A stretch of 60,026 nucleotides of DNA, taken from Acidobacteriota bacterium. Its GTDB lineage: Bacteria; Acidobacteriota; Terriglobia; Bryobacterales; Bryobacteraceae. A program made the translations under genes and the position numbers. The stretch covers positions 1 through 60,026 of the forward strand of contig JAFDVU010000017.1 in the NCBI GenBank assembly GCA_018268835.1. Direction: 5' to 3'. Shown piece after piece: positions 1,743 to 14,747 of the stretch (the stretch's first letter is position 1; each line of letters begins with the position of its first letter). Under the pieces are notes generated by a model. The model did not search any database. It worked only from the letters and a program-made list of their open reading frames with translations, and was not told the origin of the DNA.

Positions 1743-5957
<4,215 letters not shown>

Positions 5958-5975
5958 CACCGCTTAACCAAGGCA

Positions 5976-6020
5976 AAAGCCGCCGCCGCGCTCCAAGCGT
6001 GGCGGCGGCTTTGCTATTTT
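5976..6020 (+). terminator. Rho-independent terminator candidate after rpoC
   Basis: A 17-base stem (5976-5992 paired with 5996-6012) has one G-U pair and a three-base loop CCA, and is followed by GCTATTTT. It is GC-rich and starts 19 bases after the rpoC stop. It would end the rpoBC transcript here and so separate it from the str genes 51 kb downstream. The T-run is interrupted, so efficiency is uncertain. Confidence 0.75.
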
Positions 6021-6037
6021 AGGAAGAGAGTTATTCC

Positions 6038-6538
6038 ATGGCTGCCGGCACACAGATCCGCGCGAGCGAATACCTGGCCACGAACTACCGGCCGGATCGC
6101 GAGTACCTTGGCGGCGAACTTCTGGAGCGCAACGTGGGTGAATACGATCACGCCCGTCTGCAGACCGAAATTGCATTCTACTTCCGTGCCCGTTTGGCCC
6201 AGTGGGGTCTCCGCGCCGTGGTCGAGCAGCGCGTTCAAGTGGCGCCAGACCGCTTCCGCGTGCCGGACGTCTGCCTGACCGCTGCCGCGCATCCCGAGCA
6301 GATCTTCCGCAAGCCGCCCTTCGCCTGCATCGAGGTGCTCTCCCCCGAAGACCGCCTCTCCGAGATGCAGGAGCGCGTCCAGGACTACCTCGGGTTCGGC
6401 GTGCCCTACGTCTGGATTGTCGATCCCGCGACGCGCAAGGCGTGGCGTTGCACCACGACTGCCATGCAGGAAGTCGCCGAACTGCGCACCGAAAACCCCG
6501 AGACAGTTGTTCCCGTGGCCGAGTTGTTCGAGGACTGA
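6038..6538 (+). CDS. Uma2 family endonuclease-like protein (DUF820)
   Basis: This 166-residue protein is of the Uma2/DUF820 type, a PD-(D/E)XK nuclease fold that is very abundant in cyanobacteria and several soil phyla; its biological role is mostly unknown. The family pattern is seen as VPDVCL (Asp77), then IEVLSPEDR (Glu99), then YLGFGVPYVWIVDP (about 117-130). The usual lysine or arginine-rich helix before the last motif is present as MQERVQDY. A good AGGAAGAG lies 8-15 bases before the ATG. It is a single gene directly after the rpoC terminator, convergent with the next gene, so it probably has its own promoter in or just after the terminator region. Function beyond fold is inference. Confidence 0.85.
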   Translation: MAAGTQIRASEYLATNYRPDREYLGGELLERNVGEYDHARLQTEIAFYFRARLAQWGLRAVVEQRVQVAPDRFRVPDVCLTAAAHPEQIFRKPPFACIEVLSPEDRLSEMQERVQDYLGFGVPYVWIVDPATRKAWRCTTTAMQEVAELRTENPETVVPVAELFED

Positions 6539-6562
6539 GTCGCCGGAGCCGCGACTTACTCC

Positions 6563-7648
6563 TCAACCTTCCTGATTGACTAACTGAATCAGCGCCTGGA
6601 TATACCCGAAGCAGTAGGCGAACGCCTGTGCGTGGCCGGCGTCGCCCTGGATGGTCGGGACGTGGTCCGGCATCAGCATCCCGTCGTACCCAACCTCCTT
6701 ATATACCCGCGCCGCCCGGATGAAATCCACGTCCCCGTTATCCGGGAATGTTTCCTGGAAATCGCCGAATCCGCCCCTGATATTGCGGAAATGCACGTTG
6801 AAAATCCGGCCGCGCGAGCCGAAATACCGGATGACGTCGTAGATCTCCCGGCCCGGCTCTTTCAGCATCTCCGATACCGTGCCCTGACAGAAATTCAATC
6901 CATGATACGGACTGTTGCTCAGCGCCACGAACTTTTTCAGCCCGTCCACGCTGCCCAGGGCGCGGTGTACGCCGCGGTACCCCTGCGGTTCCGGCATTCC
7001 CGGATCGTGCGGGTGGCACGCCATCCGCACCTTGTGCTCCTCCGCCACCGGAATCACCCGCTGGACGAAGTAGCCGATCCGCTCCCACGCCGCGTCCAGG
7101 CTCACCGGACCCGCCTCGGTCGGCTTGTCCCTGTCGGGCGAGTCCGCGTAGCGCCACGTGGAATACATCGCCCCGCCGCGTCCCGGCGTCGGACGGGTCC
7201 GCACCACCCCCAGGATCGACATGTTGTACTTGAGCGTCCGTATCCCGGCCTCCGAAGCGTTGCGGATCATGCGGCAGATGTCGTCAATCTCACGGTCGCG
7301 CTCCGGGCTCTTACCGAGCATGATGTTGGGGTTCTCCGAGCGCGTGATATAGCTGGAACTCAAGGGCAGCGGCAGCGCCTCGAGTTGGATTCCGAACGAT
7401 TCCACGTGCTCGCGCCTGCGCTTCAGCCCATCCACGCTCCAGTTCTCGTCGAGTTTCGCCGAGGGCAGGCGCCCGCAGATTTGACTGACGCCGAAGGCGG
7501 CCATCGTCCGCAGGATGTCATCGCTATCGCCGTGCTGCGTCCCCAGCCGGAGTTTCGACGGCTTCGCCGCCGCCCGCACCCCCTGCGGTTCAACCGTTCC
7601 CGCCGCCGCGAGGGCGGCCGATGCCTGCAAGAATCGCCTGCGATCCAT
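6563..7648 (-). CDS. Tat-exported mannonate dehydratase-like (UxuA family) protein
   Basis: This 361-residue TIM-barrel protein resembles mannonate dehydratase, which converts D-mannonate to 2-keto-3-deoxygluconate. It begins with a twin-arginine signal ([17 protein letters not shown]), so it is probably exported, unlike cytoplasmic UxuA. Family motifs visible are CHPHDP (211-216), NFCQG (252-256), HFRN (286-289), DNGDVDF (303-309) and PDHVPT (327-332), which include the cysteine, histidine and aspartate positions expected for the metal site. Sugar phosphate isomerase-type TIM barrels are the main alternative, but the HFRN and DHVP blocks favour the UxuA family. It is divergent from the following operon and convergent with the Uma2 gene, 24 bases away. 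The substrate is not known. Confidence 0.75.
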
Positions 7649-7778
7649 AGGCTACAGTCTATCCGAAGCGCCGCCACCCGATCAGGGCCGCATCCCCCCT
7701 CTTTTGGGTTAATGGCGAATGAACCGCGAGTCATGCGATCATAGGGAGTACGTGGCGCCAGGCCTGTAGAGAGGTCGT

Positions 7779-8426
7779 TTGAAGAGGTTCTTACTCGTCA
7801 GCAGTTTTCTGGTTCTTTTGCTTCCGGCATTTACTTCCCCGATGGCCGTAGTCGTTTTGAATACGGCGGGCTGGTCTTCGGGACGTTTGCCCGCCGATTG
7901 GATGATCAAGGTCAACCACGGCAGGCCGGAACTCTCCGTGTGCGGCGATGCCGGCAGTTGCCTGCACCTGAAGAGCGTCGCGTCTTCCTTCGGACTCGAA
8001 CACCGTGTCGATGTCGACCCGGCCCAAACCCCGTGGCTCTCGTGGAAGTGGAAAGTGACCCGCCTTCCGGCGGGGGGCGACTTCCGCCGCGCCTCCTCGG
8101 ACGACCAGGCGGCCCAGGTTCTCGTGGCCTTCGAGGACAAGCGCATCCTCACCTACATCTGGGATTCCACCGCGCCCAAGGGCGCCATGCAGAGCGCGAG
8201 CAACATTCCCTTCGTCCACATCTTTGCCGTGGTCTGCCGCTCCGGCGCGACCGAGGCCAACGAGTGGCTGAACGAACTGCACAACGTCGCCGCCGATTAC
8301 GAACGCGCCTACGGCAAGGCCGCCCCGCGGGTGAAGGGGTTGCGCCTCCAGATCAATTCCCAACACACCGGCACCGTCGCTGAGAGCTACTTCGGCGAGG
8401 TCGCCTTCCGCAGCACGCCTCAGTGA
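7779..8426 (+). CDS. DUF3047 family secreted protein
   Basis: This is a 215-residue protein with an N-terminal signal sequence (MKRFLLVSSFLVLLLPAFTS). The pattern WLSWKWKVTRLPAGGD followed by DDQAAQVLVAF and TYIWDSTAP is that of the DUF3047 family, whose function is not known. The start is TTG at 7779, preceded by AGAGAGG four bases upstream. It opens the putative sphingolipid operon: its stop codon overlaps the start of the next gene (TGATG). A periplasmic or envelope role linked to lipid handling would fit, but is only inferred from position. Confidence 0.75.
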   Translation: MKRFLLVSSFLVLLLPAFTSPMAVVVLNTAGWSSGRLPADWMIKVNHGRPELSVCGDAGSCLHLKSVASSFGLEHRVDVDPAQTPWLSWKWKVTRLPAGGDFRRASSDDQAAQVLVAFEDKRILTYIWDSTAPKGAMQSASNIPFVHIFAVVCRSGATEANEWLNELHNVAADYERAYGKAAPRVKGLRLQINSQHTGTVAESYFGEVAFRSTPQ

Positions 8427-9382
8427 TGATCCTGGTAACCGGTGGAACGGGCTTTATCGGGGCCCATCTCCTGGAGCGTCTGGCCGCGATGGGCCAACCG
8501 GTGCGCGCGCTGGTGCGGCGCCGCGCCACGCTTCCCTCCGGCGTCGAACCGGTTCACGGCGACCTGGTCACCGGCGAAGGCATCGCCGAGGCCGTTTGCG
8601 GAGCCGATACCGTGATCCATCTCGCGGGCGTGACCAAGGCGTTGCGCACCGCCGACTACTACGCCGGCAACGCGCAAGCCACCCGCAACCTCGCCCAGGC
8701 CCTTGCCGGACGGCCCGTCCGCTTTGTTCACGTCAGTTCCCTGGCCGCCATCGGACCCTCCCCCGACGGCACGCCGGTGGGCGAGAATGCGATCCCCCAC
8801 CCGCCCGTCACCTACGGTAAATCCAAGCTCGCGGCCGAGCGGGCCGTGCGCGAAATCACCCCCGACGCGGTCATCGTGCGCCCGGCGGTGGTCTACGGAC
8901 CACGCGATACAGACGTCTTCCAGTTGCTCAAGTCCGTCTCGCGCGGCATCGTCGTAGAAATCGCGGGCGGCGAGCGCTTCTTCAGCGCCATCTATGTGAA
9001 GGACCTGGTGGAAGGCGTGCTGGCCGCGGTCCGCTCTCCGCGCGCTCCCGGACGCGACTACTTCCTGGCCCACCCCAAGCCGCTCTCCTGGCGCGACCTC
9101 TCCGGAGCCGCCGCGCGGATCATGCGCCGCGTTCCGCGCGTCCTCGCCATCCCATTCCCGGTTGCCCTGGCGGTGGGCGCGTGCGCCGAAGCCGCGGCGC
9201 GCCTCACCGGCAAGCCCGGGATCATCTCGCGCGAAAAGGTCCGCGAGGCCCGGTTCCCGTTCTGGACCTGCGACCCCGCGCGCGCCACCGCCGAACTAGG
9301 CTTCACCGCGCCAACCGCGATCGAGGCCGGCCTGGCCGAGACCCTCGCCTGGTATAAGGAGGCTGGATGGCTGACGTATTGA
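8426..9382 (+). CDS. Extended SDR (NAD-dependent epimerase/dehydratase), candidate ceramide reductase CerR
   Basis: This is an atypical extended short-chain dehydrogenase of 318 residues. TGGTGFIG at the N-terminus is the NAD(P) Rossmann motif, VIHLAGVTK follows, and TYGKSKLAAE supplies the catalytic Tyr-x-x-x-Lys. VRPAVVYGPRDTD is the family substrate-loop segment. I use the ATG at 8426, which shares a base with the previous stop; a GTG at 8423 would add one residue. In Caulobacter, an enzyme of this family annotated as epimerase reduces the ketone of 3-oxo-ceramide (CerR). Here it is co-located with a PAP2 enzyme, a GNAT-fold acyltransferase and a serine-palmitoyltransferase-like gene, which makes that role the best reading. 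A nucleotide-sugar or steroid-type SDR is the alternative. Confidence 0.8.
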   Translation: MILVTGGTGFIGAHLLERLAAMGQPVRALVRRRATLPSGVEPVHGDLVTGEGIAEAVCGADTVIHLAGVTKALRTADYYAGNAQATRNLAQALAGRPVRFVHVSSLAAIGPSPDGTPVGENAIPHPPVTYGKSKLAAERAVREITPDAVIVRPAVVYGPRDTDVFQLLKSVSRGIVVEIAGGERFFSAIYVKDLVEGVLAAVRSPRAPGRDYFLAHPKPLSWRDLSGAAARIMRRVPRVLAIPFPVALAVGACAEAAARLTGKPGIISREKVREARFPFWTCDPARATAELGFTAPTAIEAGLAETLAWYKEAGWLTY

Positions 9383-10251
9383 CGGCCCGCGCGACGGCCG
9401 CCGACACCCGCTTCTGGGCCGTGGACAAGGTGATCCTGACCTACTTCGCCTTCTCGGTGGCGATGCTGCTCGGCTGGTGGAGCAGGATACCATACGCCCC
9501 GGCGCTGCTCGCCGCCAACCTCGCCGGCGGGGCGCTGATTGTTTTCCAGGCGAAGCGGCCGAATCCGACATCCTGGATCTTCCGGAACTGGTACCCCCTT
9601 CCGTTCGTAGCTTCCTGTTACAAGGAAATGGCGCTATTCATCCCCGCCGTGCGCGCCACGGATGCCGACGGCGCGCTCGCCGGCCTCGATTACCGCATCT
9701 GGGGCGCGAACCCCACAGTTTGGCTCGAGCGCTGGCACCACCCCGCCTTTACCGAATTTCTGCAGGCGGTCTACACCCTGTTCGTGCCCGCGGTGCTTTA
9801 CGTTGCGTGGCTGCTCTGGCGGCAGCGCAAATACCAGGATTTTCAGTACTACGCGTTCCTGATTGCGCTCGGCTTCCTGGTGTCCTACCTCGGCTACCTG
9901 GCTGTGCCGGCGCGCGGCCCCCGCTTCCTGCTCAAAGACCTCCAGCACTTTCCGCTTCAGGGCCTATGGCTCTTTCGAGGCATGCAGCACATGCTGGACA
10001 CGCTCGAATCGGCTCATTACGACTGTTTTCCCAGCGGTCACACGGAACTTACCATCCTGGCGTGGTGGGGCAGCCGAATGGTCTCCGGACGGCTGTTCCG
10101 GGTCTATTTTGCCTACACTCCGTGCATCATTTTTGCTACAGTTTATCTTCGATACCACTATACGGTCGACCTGCTGGGCGGAATCGTCACGGCCGCGTGT
10201 TTGATTTTGGCTTCACCCGGGTTGTACAAAAATCTGTCTCAAGGGGCGTAG
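9367..10251 (+). CDS. Integral membrane PAP2/Aur1-like phosphotransferase, candidate ceramide head-group transferase
   Basis: This 294-residue polytopic membrane protein is of the PAP2 superfamily, closest in style to the Aur1/Ipt1 inositolphosphoceramide-synthase branch. The conserved blocks are PARGPRF (181-187), CFPSGHTE (220-227) and RYHYTVDLLGG (262-272). They give a His225, His264, Asp268 triad of the kind Aur1 and sphingomyelin synthases use to move a phospho-head group. At least five hydrophobic segments are visible (around 22-38, 45-60, 135-150, 162-180 and 247-283). It overlaps the SDR gene by 16 bases, and AAGGAGG lies four bases before the ATG. Context suggests it attaches or removes a phosphate-linked head group on ceramide. 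A simple lipid phosphatase remains possible. Confidence 0.8.
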   Translation: MADVLTARATAADTRFWAVDKVILTYFAFSVAMLLGWWSRIPYAPALLAANLAGGALIVFQAKRPNPTSWIFRNWYPLPFVASCYKEMALFIPAVRATDADGALAGLDYRIWGANPTVWLERWHHPAFTEFLQAVYTLFVPAVLYVAWLLWRQRKYQDFQYYAFLIALGFLVSYLGYLAVPARGPRFLLKDLQHFPLQGLWLFRGMQHMLDTLESAHYDCFPSGHTELTILAWWGSRMVSGRLFRVYFAYTPCIIFATVYLRYHYTVDLLGGIVTAACLILASPGLYKNLSQGA

Positions 10252-10254
10252 CGT

Positions 10255-11370
10255 TTGGCAGGCATTGAGATCACAGCGGTCGACGGTAAGAAGGCGCTAA
10301 ACGAGTTCGTGGAGTTCCCTTTCACGCTCCTGCGCCATGAGGCGAACTGGGTACCGCCGTTACGGATCGCAGTGAAGGAACTCCTCGACCGCCGCAAGCA
10401 CCCTTTCTACGCTGAAGCTGAAGCCGAGTTCTTTCTGGCCCGCCGCGAGGGCCGCGTGGTGGGCCGCATCGCCGCCATCTTCAACCGCGCCCACAACCGC
10501 TTCCACGAAGAGGAGGCCGGTTTCTTTGGCTTCTTCGAATCCGAGAACGATGCTGAAATCGCCCGCGCGCTGCTCGCGCAGGCACGTTCCTGGCTCACCG
10601 CGCGCGGCGTCAAGGTCATCCGCGGCCCCGTCAACCCCTCCACCAACTACGAGTGCGGTCTGCTGGTCGAGGGGTTCGACTCCGACCCCATGGTCATGAT
10701 GACGTGGAATCCGCCGTACTACGCTGCTTTGCTGGAGCAAGCCGGCCTGATCAAAGCCAAGGACCTGCTGGCTTATCTCAGCAACGCCAACACCATCAGC
10801 ACTGAAAAAATCGGGCGGGTTGCCGACAAAGCCCTGTCATCAAACGGTGTGCGGGTACGTCCCATCAACATGAAGGATTTCGAGGCCGATGTCGCGCGTG
10901 TCTGGGAGGTCTACGACGCGGCCTGGGCCCGCAACTGGGGATTTGTCCCCATGAGCCGCGAGGAATTCTTTCAAATGGGCAAGGAAATGAAGATGATCCT
11001 GAAGCCCGACCTCGTCCTGCTCGGCGAAAACGAAGGCAAGGTAATCGGCTTCGCCCTCGCGCTCCCCGACGTCAATCAGGCGCTGAAGCGCGCCCGCGGC
11101 CGGCTGCTCCCCACGGGCATCATTAAAATCCTGTATTATCAACGTTTGATCAAAAATGTACGGGTCCTTGCGCTCGGCGTAGTCGACGAGTACCGAGCCA
11201 GCGGTCTCGCGGCAGGGTTTTACGCGACTTTGGTGCGTAATGCCCGTAAACTGGGCTATGGCGACTGCGAGATGTCCTGGATTCTTGAAGACAACGTGCT
11301 CATGAATCGCTCGCTAGAAGCGATGGGGGCACGGCGCTATAAAACCTATCGAATTTATGAATGGAACTGA
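10255..11370 (+). CDS. GNAT-fold N-acyltransferase, candidate bacterial ceramide synthase (bCerS)
   Basis: This 371-residue protein belongs to the large GNAT-like family often labelled as an N-acetyltransferase or hypothetical. The N-terminal signature FVEFPFTLLRHEANWVPPL, then ARREGRVVGRIAAIFN, GFFGFFE and SDPMVMMTWNPPYY, matches what I recall of Caulobacter bCerS and its relatives. The C-terminal half carries a second GNAT-like block (LALGVVDEYRASGLAAGFY). The start is TTG at 10255 with AAGGGG eight bases upstream, three bases after the previous stop. In the proposed pathway it N-acylates 3-ketosphinganine with a fatty acyl-CoA. Family membership is good; the ceramide-synthase role is inferred mainly from its place beside spt and the SDR. 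Confidence 0.75.
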   Translation: MAGIEITAVDGKKALNEFVEFPFTLLRHEANWVPPLRIAVKELLDRRKHPFYAEAEAEFFLARREGRVVGRIAAIFNRAHNRFHEEEAGFFGFFESENDAEIARALLAQARSWLTARGVKVIRGPVNPSTNYECGLLVEGFDSDPMVMMTWNPPYYAALLEQAGLIKAKDLLAYLSNANTISTEKIGRVADKALSSNGVRVRPINMKDFEADVARVWEVYDAAWARNWGFVPMSREEFFQMGKEMKMILKPDLVLLGENEGKVIGFALALPDVNQALKRARGRLLPTGIIKILYYQRLIKNVRVLALGVVDEYRASGLAAGFYATLVRNARKLGYGDCEMSWILEDNVLMNRSLEAMGARRYKTYRIYEWN

Positions 11371-12614
11371 GGACCATGCGCGTATCGACTAGCGACATCA
11401 CCGGAAGAAAAAAAGCAAGCGGCTCGAACGATATCTTCGAGAAGTGCCGCAATTTCACTCGTCCGAGTGATCTTCAGGCCGCTGGGCTCTACATGTACTT
11501 CGAGGTGTTCGGCGATCGCGAAGGCTGCGGGGCCGGCGAAATCCGCATGGGCAAGCGCAAGGTGCTCATGTTCGGTTCCAACGATTACCTCGACCTCATC
11601 AACCATCCCAAGGTCAAGGAAGCCGCCATCGCCGCACTGAAGAAATACGGCAGCGGCTGCAGCGGATCCCGTCTTCTCAACGGCACCCTCGACCTGCACG
11701 TCCGCCTCGAAGCCGAACTCGCCGAATTCGTCCACAAGGAAGCCGCCATCATCTTCGGCACCGGTTTTCAGGCCAATTACGCGACCCTGAGCGCCCTCAC
11801 CGAGAAGGGCGATGTGCTCATCTGCGATCACAACCTGCACGCCTCGCTGGTTGAAGGCGCGCTACGCTCGCCCGCCCGCACGGTCCGTTTCCGCCACAAC
11901 GACATGGACCACTTCGAGCGCTGCCTGGAAAACTGTCCGCCCGACGAGAAGATCTTCATCATCAGCGAAGGCGTGTTCAGCATGGAAGGCGACATCGCCG
12001 ACCTGCGCGGCATCCTCAAGGTGGCCAAGCCTTACGGCGCGCGCACCTACGTGGATGAAGCGCACGGCATCGGCGTGCTCGGGCCGACCGGCGCCGGCGC
12101 AGCCGAACACCTGGGCGTGCTCGACGAGATCGATATCGTCATGGGCACCTTCTCCAAATCGCTGGCCAGCGTCGGTGGTTTCATCGCTGGTGAGAAGGCG
12201 GTCATCGATTACCTCAAGCACACCGCGCGCCCGTTTGTATTTTCGGCCAGCCTTCCGGCGGCCAGCGTCGCCGCCGTCGCCCAGTCGCTGGCCATCATGC
12301 GGAAGGAGCCCGAGCGCCGCAATCATCTCCTGCAGATCGCCTCGCTGTTGCGCACCGAACTTCGCTCCGCCGGGTTCAACGTGCTCGACGGTGAGACTGC
12401 CATCGTTCCGGTGGTCATCCAGGAAGAGCTCGATCTCTGCCGCCTCTGCAAGGCGCTGCTCGAAGAGGGCATCTACATCAACCCGGTGCTGCGGCCGGCG
12501 GCCGCGCAGAATCTGCTGCGCATCTCCTGTACCGCGGCGCACAACGAAAAGCACGTGGACCGTCTGGTGACGACCCTGGTCCGCGTCGCCAACGACCTCG
12601 GCATCGAACGCTAG
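11361..12614 (+). CDS. spt: Serine palmitoyltransferase-like alpha-oxoamine synthase
   Basis: This is a PLP enzyme of the alpha-oxoamine synthase family, 417 residues. It condenses an amino acid, probably L-serine, with an acyl thioester; for SPT the product is 3-ketosphinganine, the first step of sphingolipid synthesis. Key residues are Lys266 in GTFSKSLAS (PLP Schiff base), Asp232 and His235 in VDEAHGIG, and His160 in DHNLHAS. The LMFGSNDYLDL and GSGCSGSRLLNGT blocks and a 45-residue N-terminal extension favour SPT over BioF or Kbl. It overlaps the upstream GNAT gene by 10 bases; ATG 11376 is an alternative start. No acyl carrier protein or acyl-ACP synthetase gene is adjacent, unlike the Caulobacter cluster as I recall it. 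Confidence 0.82.
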   Translation: MELRTMRVSTSDITGRKKASGSNDIFEKCRNFTRPSDLQAAGLYMYFEVFGDREGCGAGEIRMGKRKVLMFGSNDYLDLINHPKVKEAAIAALKKYGSGCSGSRLLNGTLDLHVRLEAELAEFVHKEAAIIFGTGFQANYATLSALTEKGDVLICDHNLHASLVEGALRSPARTVRFRHNDMDHFERCLENCPPDEKIFIISEGVFSMEGDIADLRGILKVAKPYGARTYVDEAHGIGVLGPTGAGAAEHLGVLDEIDIVMGTFSKSLASVGGFIAGEKAVIDYLKHTARPFVFSASLPAASVAAVAQSLAIMRKEPERRNHLLQIASLLRTELRSAGFNVLDGETAIVPVVIQEELDLCRLCKALLEEGIYINPVLRPAAAQNLLRISCTAAHNEKHVDRLVTTLVRVANDLGIER

Positions 12615-12672
12615 CCAGTCTGGACAATCTGGACGCCGCGACCCGGTCCGGTCCTGCTATGCTCAGGACAAG

Positions 12673-13497
12673 ATGTACCTCAGAAGGGTATTCCGCTGGG
12701 CCGCGGGCGGCGTTGTTTGTCTTGGCGCGGTCTACGCCTTCCAGCGCCCCTTCCGCCAGTTCCACGGCGTTGAGTACTACAGTTTCGAACTGCCCCCGGG
12801 CTGGCAGGAGAAAACCGAGTTCGCCTTCGCCCGGCTGATGTTTCCGCCCGGCCCCCTCAACGGCTACCGCGGGCGCGACGCCGACTGGCACGACGGCATC
12901 TCGCTCTGGACCCAGGACTACCCGCGCGCCGACCGTCACTTCTCCCAGGCCGTCCGCCGCCTCACCCGCGTCCACATTCGCAGCGCCGAGCAACCCGTCA
13001 ACCTCGAAGAGGGCGACGCCTACGACTGGCCGTGGCTCTACGCCGTCCAGGTGGGAGAATGGGGACTCACCGACCGGCAGGGCCAGTTGCTCCGCGAGTA
13101 TTGCCTCCGCGGCGGCTTCTTCATGGCCGACGACCTTCACGGTGACGCCGAATGGTACGAGTTCGAGAGCCGTATCCGCAAGGCGTTCCCCGAATACACC
13201 ATCCGCGAAATCCCCGACGACGACCCCATCTTTCACACGGTCTACGATCTCAACGAGCGCTACCAGGTCCCGGGGCAGGCCCACCTGCGCCTCGGCTACA
13301 AGAACGGCCCCACCGGCAAAGGCGCGCACTGGCGCGCCATCTACGACGACAAGGGCCGCATCCTGGTCGCCATCTCTTACAATTCCGATATCGGTGACGC
13401 GTGGGAGTTCGCCGACGACGCCTGGTACCCGTCGCGATTCTCCGACCTCGCCATGCGGCTCGGCGTCAACTATATCATCTACTCCATGACCCACTAG
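12673..13497 (+). CDS. DUF4159 domain-containing protein
   Basis: This 274-residue protein has an N-terminal membrane anchor or signal (about residues 5-23) and a DUF4159 domain. Typical segments are YPRADRHFSQAVRRLTR (about 84-100), LREYCLRGGFFMADDLHG (about 138-155) and WEFADDAWYPSRFS near the C-terminus. DUF4159 is a glutamine-amidotransferase-like fold with no assigned activity and is often found with MoxR/VWA modules, which are absent here. It follows the sphingolipid operon after 58 bases with no visible terminator, so it may be co-transcribed. Confidence 0.75.
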   Translation: MYLRRVFRWAAGGVVCLGAVYAFQRPFRQFHGVEYYSFELPPGWQEKTEFAFARLMFPPGPLNGYRGRDADWHDGISLWTQDYPRADRHFSQAVRRLTRVHIRSAEQPVNLEEGDAYDWPWLYAVQVGEWGLTDRQGQLLREYCLRGGFFMADDLHGDAEWYEFESRIRKAFPEYTIREIPDDDPIFHTVYDLNERYQVPGQAHLRLGYKNGPTGKGAHWRAIYDDKGRILVAISYNSDIGDAWEFADDAWYPSRFSDLAMRLGVNYIIYSMTH

Positions 13498-13526
13498 GCG
13501 CTAGCGCCGTGAGTTACTCTCTTGCT

Positions 13527-14747
13527 ATGAACCGCCGTTCGTTTCTCAAGGCTTCCGCCGCCGCGCCCCTGCTCGCCGCTCCCGCCGCCGGCGCCCCCGT
13601 CACGCCCCCCGCCTCTGACGAGTGGGTGAAGCCCGTCTTCAACCTGCACGCCAAGATCTCCACGCCCGTCAAAATCGCCTCGATCGAACTGCTCCGCTCC
13701 GGCAAACAGTTCTTCCTCCGCACGCGCTCCACGGACGGCGCCGAGGGCTTCATCCTCACCAAGGACATGGAGGACTTCGTCCCCATCCTGCAGCACCGCG
13801 TGATTCCGCATTACATCAACAAGGACGCGCGCGACCTCGAAAGCCTGGTGGACCAGGTCTACATCGCCAACTACAAACTCTCCGGCCAGGCGTTCTGGTG
13901 CCCCGTCGCGTACGTGGAGCAGAGCCTCTTCGATTTACTGGGCAAGACGGTGCACAAGAGCGCCAGCGAACTCATGGGCGGACCGCTGCGCAAGGAGATC
14001 CCCGTCTATCTCTCCGGCTCCGGACGGGACACCACCGCCGAAGAAGAGGTCGGGGTCTACGAGCGCGGAGTCGAAGAGACCGGCGCCAAGGCGGTGAAGT
14101 TCAAAATCGGCGGGCGCATGAGCGGCAACAAGGATAGCTACCCGGGCCGCACCGACAGGATTTTCGAACTCGCCGCCAAGAGCCTCGCCGGCAAAGTCAC
14201 CCTCATGGCGGACGCCAACGGCAGTTACTCCGCCGCCAAGGCCATCGAAGTCGGCAAGCGCCTGGAAGAGATGAACTACCTCTGGTTCGAAGAGCCCTGC
14301 CCGTGGGAAGAAAAGGGCGAAATGCAGAAGGCCAAGCAGGCGCTGAAAATCAAAATCGCCTTCGGCGAACAGGACTCCAGCCTCTGGATGTTCCACTGGC
14401 TCATCGAAAACAAGATCATCGACGTGGTGCAGCCCGACCTGAATTACAACGGCGGTTTCACACGCGCCGCGCGCGTCGCGCGCATGGCCCGCAACGCCGG
14501 CAGCCTGTGGATCTGCCCCCACAACACGCAGACCGGCGCGGCCAGCGTGAACATTCTGCACTTCGCCGCCACCACGCCCAACATCGGCCCCTGGATGGAA
14601 TACGTCCACCGCAGCGAGCCGAAACCGGAGTCGTGGTACACGCCGAACTTCCGCATCCGCAACGGAGCCATTCCTTTGCCCACGGGTCCCGGCCTGGGCC
14701 TCGAGTTCGACCCCGAGTTCGTGAAGAAGGCAGCCAAAGTGGTGTGA
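13527..14747 (+). CDS. Tat-exported enolase-superfamily enzyme (mandelate racemase subgroup)
   Basis: This 406-residue enzyme has a twin-arginine-type leader (MNRRSFLKASAAAPLLAAPA) and a complete mandelate-racemase-type active site. Lys191-Phe-Lys193 is the KxK base, Asp229, Glu255 and Glu281 are the magnesium ligands, and Asp304 with His332 forms the second-base dyad (PHNTQTG). Such enzymes abstract an alpha-proton from a sugar acid and usually dehydrate or epimerise it. The ATG at 13527 is chosen because it begins the signal; the frame is open further upstream but there overlaps the DUF4159 gene. The neighbouring exported Gfo/Idh protein and the UxuA-like protein suggest sugar-acid metabolism outside the cytoplasm. 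The exact substrate cannot be read from the sequence. Confidence 0.85.
   Translation: MNRRSFLKASAAAPLLAAPAAGAPVTPPASDEWVKPVFNLHAKISTPVKIASIELLRSGKQFFLRTRSTDGAEGFILTKDMEDFVPILQHRVIPHYINKDARDLESLVDQVYIANYKLSGQAFWCPVAYVEQSLFDLLGKTVHKSASELMGGPLRKEIPVYLSGSGRDTTAEEEVGVYERGVEETGAKAVKFKIGGRMSGNKDSYPGRTDRIFELAAKSLAGKVTLMADANGSYSAAKAIEVGKRLEEMNYLWFEEPCPWEEKGEMQKAKQALKIKIAFGEQDSSLWMFHWLIENKIIDVVQPDLNYNGGFTRAARVARMARNAGSLWICPHNTQTGAASVNILHFAATTPNIGPWMEYVHRSEPKPESWYTPNFRIRNGAIPLPTGPGLGLEFDPEFVKKAAKVV

Follow-up and report, generated by a model that had tools for sequence, protein, structure and literature searches.

The stretch of DNA analysed (60,026 nucleotides, referred to below as the window) belongs to an Acidobacteriota bacterium of the Bryobacteraceae whose genome is available as a 7.46 Mb assembly of 367 contigs. 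Between positions 7779 and 12614 it carries five plus-strand genes, which a first-pass annotation had described as a compact sphingolipid operon; sphingolipids are membrane lipids whose occurrence in bacteria was for a long time believed to be exceptional. The first (7779–8426, TTG start) specifies a 215-aa protein of the DUF3047 family (Pfam PF11249, 108.2 bits, cut-off 27). It is followed by genes for an extended short-chain dehydrogenase/reductase (SDR) resembling CerR (8423–9382; PF01370, 110 bits), with a GGTGFIG nucleotide motif and YGKSK; for a membrane enzyme of the PAP2_3 family that resembles fungal Aur1 (9367–10251; PF14378, 60 bits), with the triad H225, H264 and D268; for a GNAT-type N-acyltransferase of the YghO/bCerS family (10255–11370; PF00583, 27 bits); and for a pyridoxal phosphate (PLP) enzyme resembling serine palmitoyltransferase (SPT) (11361–12614; Aminotran_1_2, PF00155, 208 bits), with the PLP lysine K266 in GTFSKS. 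All five proteins exceeded the Pfam cut-offs, and the open reading frames, families and spacings agreed with those first annotated, one junction depending on the start codon chosen. The stop of the DUF3047 gene and the start of the SDR gene overlap by 1–4 bases (SDR start ATG or GTG), the SDR and PAP2 genes overlap by 16 bases, with AAGGAGG preceding the PAP2 ATG, and a 3-base gap separates PAP2 from GNAT. The 10-base overlap annotated between GNAT and SPT holds only if the first SPT ATG (11361) serves as the start; an alternative ATG at 11376, with GAGG in front, gives a 5-base gap instead. A scan of positions 7500–13600 found no promoter-like site; it returned 12 terminator-like sites compared with 4.7 in shuffled sequences, one of them (12693) inside the downstream DUF4159 gene, and was not used.

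The conservation of this arrangement was analysed by searching a single genome of each species for two exact PAP2 peptide patterns, which yielded 217 relatives, the best 80 loci being kept. Fifty-one of these 80 were acidobacterial, with a PAP2 identity of at least 46% (loci L050–L099 and L101). The order DUF3047-SDR-PAP2-GNAT-SPT was complete in 37 of the 51, and in all 51 the GNAT gene followed the PAP2 gene, so that the arrangement exceeds what chance would give. One to three members were missing from the other 14 loci, five of which end at a contig edge on the side of the missing gene (L052, L063, L065, L071 and L093); four loci retained PAP2-GNAT only (L092, where the GNAT gene is in two pieces, L093, L095 and L098). 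The median junctions, taken from tblastn ends, were −1, −13, +12 and −10 bases. The next gene, specifying DUF4159 (12673), was considered as a sixth member and rejected, since it had no match at E 1e-6 in the 51 acidobacterial loci; the conserved set thus ends at the SPT gene. Among 61 relatives the GNAT was found in 18, including all nine genomes of the genus (the present one among them), with a patchy distribution across the family; in two of the 18 it was a distant match (G029, 27%) or in two fragments (G025). In genome G003 the operon region is present twice, on two contigs (L065/L018 and L051/L019), one copy starting at a contig end within the SDR gene. In the window, rpoC lies upstream of the operon, from which a Uma2 gene and a UxuA-like gene separate it (1743–8426); locus L016 likewise has, upstream of the operon, two Uma2 matches and the terminal part of rpoC. 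This suggests that the chromosomal position was inherited.

The identity of the PLP enzyme was analysed with a maximum-likelihood tree of 45 rows. It fell inside a 29-row SPT clade (support 100/98) together with both characterised SPT lineages; the clade includes the enzymes of S. multivorum, S. wittichii, Sphingomonas and Parabacteroides. A second family member of the same genome (C133) fell towards Kbl, with support of 90/89. HemA and the BioF of E. coli formed long branches. Identities as Kbl, BioF or HemA were therefore rejected, and the SPT-like assignment, which clustering with BioF or Kbl would have overturned, stood. The best of the NCBIfam models listed was NF047600 (SerpalmtaseCFB, the Bacteroidota-type SPT), with 449.8 bits; the BioF model gave 374 bits (cut-off 426), and no NCBIfam cut-off was reached. 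As NF047600 requires 640 bits, the enzyme was not filed as its equivalog. The PLP site, annotated as complete, proved so by alignment: N52, S81, H138, D210, H213, K244 and the substrate arginine of S. multivorum SPT correspond to N74, S103, H160, D232, H235, K266 and R387. The residues that hold serine and PLP in S. multivorum SPT, according to PMC10196870 and PMC9304779, are kept (N52, Y54, S81, H138, S185, T241, S243 and K244), while two active-site neighbours differ (Ala79 is Ser101 here, and Met271 is Val293). Assignment as the cysteate acyltransferase SulA was also rejected: Ala296 stands where the diagnostic Lys281 would be expected, a column located through S. multivorum A274, the SulA sequence not being in the alignment. 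In three genomes of one acidobacterial genus (G242, G272 and G280), a divergent alpha-oxoamine synthase that falls outside the SPT clade adjoins a bCerS-family GNAT (L166, 4395–6673; L167, 3981–6390; L168, 1750–4139; frames of 505–529 aa with a GTLSKSFA motif); it is a possible alternative condensing enzyme.

For the GNAT and the SDR, membership of the bCerS and CerR families was judged through the homologues named in PMC9386255 rather than by the Caulobacter sequences themselves; that paper pairs yghO with CC_1154 and ECD_02852 with CC_1164 as counterparts. In tblastn searches the GNAT was 34% identical to E. coli YghO and 39% to a Roseomonas mucosa protein over 98–99% of the length, and 34–45% identical over 97–99% to proteins of Roseomonas, Sphingomonas, Rubrobacter, Streptomyces, Nonomuraea and Aureispira. 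Pfam reveals little about the protein, and searches of the PDB with its sequence and with its profile returned no informative relative. Among the GNAT matches listed from genomes, the named homologues came from Bryobacteraceae, Candidatus Acidoferrum and Verrucomicrobiae, all as metagenome-assembled genomes. Full-length homology to YghO and alphaproteobacterial proteins, together with linkage to SPT, makes the protein, by sequence, a member of the YghO/CC_1154 (bCerS) family, as first proposed, rather than of an unrelated one, and N-acylation is its predicted activity. The order SPT-GNAT-SDR was read in Rubrobacter and Streptomyces records, and in Aureispira the three genes lie near one another. 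The E. coli record shows spt, an acyl carrier protein (ACP) gene, SDR, acyl-AMP ligase and yghO, with a similar order in P. veronii, where several genes are unnamed; in Sphingomonas a NAD(P)H-binding protein, ACP and SPT are followed by the GNAT 6 kb further on; and in Roseomonas ∼10 kb, including LptF/LptG genes, separates the SPT and ACP genes from the GNAT, no SDR being annotated. The Nonomuraea record carries no gene annotation. Of 5426 complete genomes of E. coli, 4022 contain that species' cluster (spt-ACP-SDR-fatty acyl-AMP ligase-yghO; L034, 3525–9122) across 80% or more of its length. The Roseomonas bCerS-family protein (L033, 15968–17125) is labelled dATP pyrophosphohydrolase, probably a misannotation.

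NCBIfam gives the SDR no fitting name, the top model being HpnA (127 of 368 bits). When a profile built from ten SDRs of SPT loci outside the family was run on the whole genome, the SDR in the window scored 340 bits and the next of the 21 matches 172. It is thus the genome's best match to SDRs that stand beside SPT genes, a result at odds with its grouping in an unrelated family and in keeping with the CerR-like label.

Linkage outside the close relatives was sought in 197 acidobacterial genomes, at most 12, 10 and 9 candidates being scored per genome. A PAP2 match of at least 160 bits was found in 12 genomes, from seven families. All 12 had a GNAT match of at least 400 bits, compared with 32 of the other 185 (nominal Fisher P = 4e-9), and 8 of the 12 had an SPT match of at least 320 bits, compared with 37 of 185 (P = 0.001), with bit thresholds picked after the scores had been seen, in genomes that are related and with the window's own genome among the 12. 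Twenty stretches of such genomes, picked for their matches, were read. SPT-SDR-PAP2 was present in L171, L172, L173 and L181, SDR-PAP2 in L174, and SPT-GNAT-SDR-PAP2 in L177 and L179, where PAP2 scored weakly (52 and 43 bits); in L176 PAP2 lies near the GNAT on the opposite strand, and no such pairing was seen in the remaining 12. Among 29 more distant PAP2 loci, PAP2 adjoins GNAT-SPT-SDR on the opposite strand in L106 (labelled Deltaproteobacteria) and L108 (Nitrospirae), and the other 27 showed none of the four partners in the stretch examined. When the whole genomes of 22 of the 29 distant carriers were checked, 20 had a bCerS-family GNAT and 19 an SPT match of at least 470 bits, counts that have no baseline for those phyla.

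We consider it quite probable that 7779–12614 is a conserved set, likely one operon, that would make ceramide by the SPT/bCerS/CerR route and then likely attach a phosphate-linked head group through an Aur1-type enzyme. In this pathway, SPT would condense serine with an acyl thioester to 3-ketosphinganine, the GNAT would N-acylate the long-chain base, and the SDR would reduce the 3-keto group, either ahead of acylation or following it. The PAP2 enzyme, its His-His-Asp triad probably periplasmic, would then transfer the phospho-head group of a glycerophospholipid to ceramide. The DUF3047 protein has a signal-peptide-like N-terminus (read by eye) and a predicted beta-jelly-roll fold (model pLDDT 88.4), and no function for the family was found in the open-licence literature; that it is exported and acts on the product, or on its carriage in the envelope, is a guess and the weakest step. 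Several observations weigh against this pathway. The PLP enzyme stays under every NCBIfam SPT cut-off (450/640, 358/500 and 284/670 bits), and the operon has no gene for a specialised ACP or acyl-ACP synthetase, unlike the Rhodobacteria genes of PMC9386255. Genomes G023 (L098) and G036 (L095) have PAP2-GNAT with no SPT-clade enzyme found, an SPT match of at least 320 bits is missing from 4 of the 12 genomes with strong PAP2 matches, and with a PAP2 threshold of 100 bits the link weakens (GNAT in 17 of 31 genomes, SPT in 13). No export signal was visible in the SDR when read by eye; since Caulobacter CerR is periplasmic (PMC11087976), the order of steps may differ from that of Caulobacter. Finally, inositol-phosphate synthase was checked for co-inheritance with the operon and showed none: the domain was over its cut-off in 53 of the 61 relatives regardless of the operon, and it was not found in G011, an operon carrier.

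The PAP2 protein could instead be an ordinary lipid-phosphate phosphatase within a ceramide operon, for example one recycling a phosphosphingoid, phosphatidylglycerophosphate or undecaprenyl pyrophosphate, in which case the product would be free ceramide or ceramide glycosylated elsewhere. This is unlikely: AUR1 matches the PAP2 structure model (pLDDT 92.9) over 256 residues, N-terminal helices included, compared with about 160–180 for phosphatases; AUR1 also ranked first in a sequence profile search, and PAP2 is co-inherited with bCerS. The whole-chain Aur1 fold and the H-H-D triad, as modelled for this one bacterial PAP2_3 protein, indicate that the enzyme is likely an Aur1-like candidate ceramide head-group transferase, which strengthens the initial suggestion of a head-group enzyme. 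As to the donor, phosphatidylinositol is favoured because, besides the Aur1-like fold, the genome has an inositol-phosphate synthase domain (110 bits) and a PIP-synthase-like gene, although the latter reached no cut-off (137/170 bits for NF045883, 134/350 for the BT_1523 model and 157/180 for archaetidylinositol phosphate synthase). With BT_1522 as a precedent (PMC9246714 and PMC8791184), inositol phosphoceramide would be the favoured product. A Bacteroidota plasmid PAP2 match (H62, 24.7%) was tried as a BT_1522 relative and dropped, no inositol gene being recognised by eye among its open reading frames. A variant compatible with the same pathway, in which the head group is ethanolamine or glycerol and the PAP2 protein an Aur1-fold synthase of ceramide phosphoethanolamine or ceramide phosphoglycerol, has a sizeable though lesser chance of being right. 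PssA (over cut-off) is encoded beside Psd, so phosphatidylethanolamine is probably available and a possible donor; and, with inositol-phosphate synthase occurring irrespective of the operon, the inositol link is non-discriminating.

It is very improbable that the alpha-oxoamine synthase, GNAT and SDR make a different sphingolipid-like amino lipid, such as 1-deoxyceramide from alanine or another N-acyl amino alcohol. The Ser101 and Val293 substitutions and the unreached SPT cut-offs are consistent with such a product, and 1-deoxyceramides are among the Black Sea sphingolipids given in PMC11334938. On the other hand, the eight serine- and PLP-holding residues are kept, no lysine occupies the presumed SulA-specific position, and a head-group transferase would need a C1 hydroxyl, absent in 1-deoxyceramide.

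Ceramides have reportedly been found in Solibacter usitatus, of the same acidobacterial group, to judge from the title of a 2024 article by Halamka et al. in Front Geochem; no record titled Solibacter usitatus was among the best 80 of the 217 loci. Soil lipidomics has correlated ceramides with an acidobacterial sequence type and raised the question of whether the phylum makes sphingolipids (PMC9969633), and Spt-like proteins occur in many phyla (PMC11334938). For the question about the phylum, the operon offers genes whose occurrence can be followed, together with a predicted head-group step, the gene for which lies away from the SPT gene in Bacteroides. It also points to an Aur1-like family in bacteria other than Bacteroides, and the reaction of this family is open to direct testing. 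More tentatively, and with the balance of probability against the whole, Acidobacteriota may make phosphosphingolipids from one operon with an Aur1-type synthase as the fixed partner of bCerS, the PAP2 family may be the sign of a head-group route that also exists in Calditrichota, Ignavibacteria, Nitrospirae and further lineages, and DUF3047 may be an exported protein of carbohydrate-binding-like type, the first that specifically serves a bacterial sphingolipid. If the PAP2 route is so shared, Aur1-type inositol phosphoceramide synthesis would be a widespread bacterial trait.

SPT/bCerS/CerR clusters and a bacterial Aur1 homologue in Bacteroides are already published. No backbone operon with an Aur1-type member was found in the open-licence literature, part of which ground the papers on convergent ceramide synthesis and on Solibacter ceramides may cover. 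The dihydroceramide cluster of Caulobacter crescentus and E. coli BL21 (spt, acpR, aasR, cerR/epi and bcerS/aca, the last being yghO) unites an SPT, a CerR-like SDR and a bCerS-family GNAT, as here, but in another gene order and with AcpR and AasR genes that the present operon lacks; the candidate phospho-head-group genes of Caulobacter are CC_1161–1158, CC_1153 and CC_1152, which are other genes of the region (PMC11324152). Rubrobacter radiotolerans and Streptomyces sp. NBC_01001 also have SPT, GNAT and SDR in one cassette, although, unlike here, no PAP2 or DUF3047 match was present in the two stretches read. In Bacteroides thetaiotaomicron (BT_1522–1526) an Aur1-type enzyme, the kind predicted here, is needed for the phospho-head group of dihydroceramide; there BT_1522 stands beside inositol-lipid genes and the SPT (BT_0870) is encoded elsewhere, whereas here the Aur1-like gene lies within the backbone operon and the inositol-type genes elsewhere.
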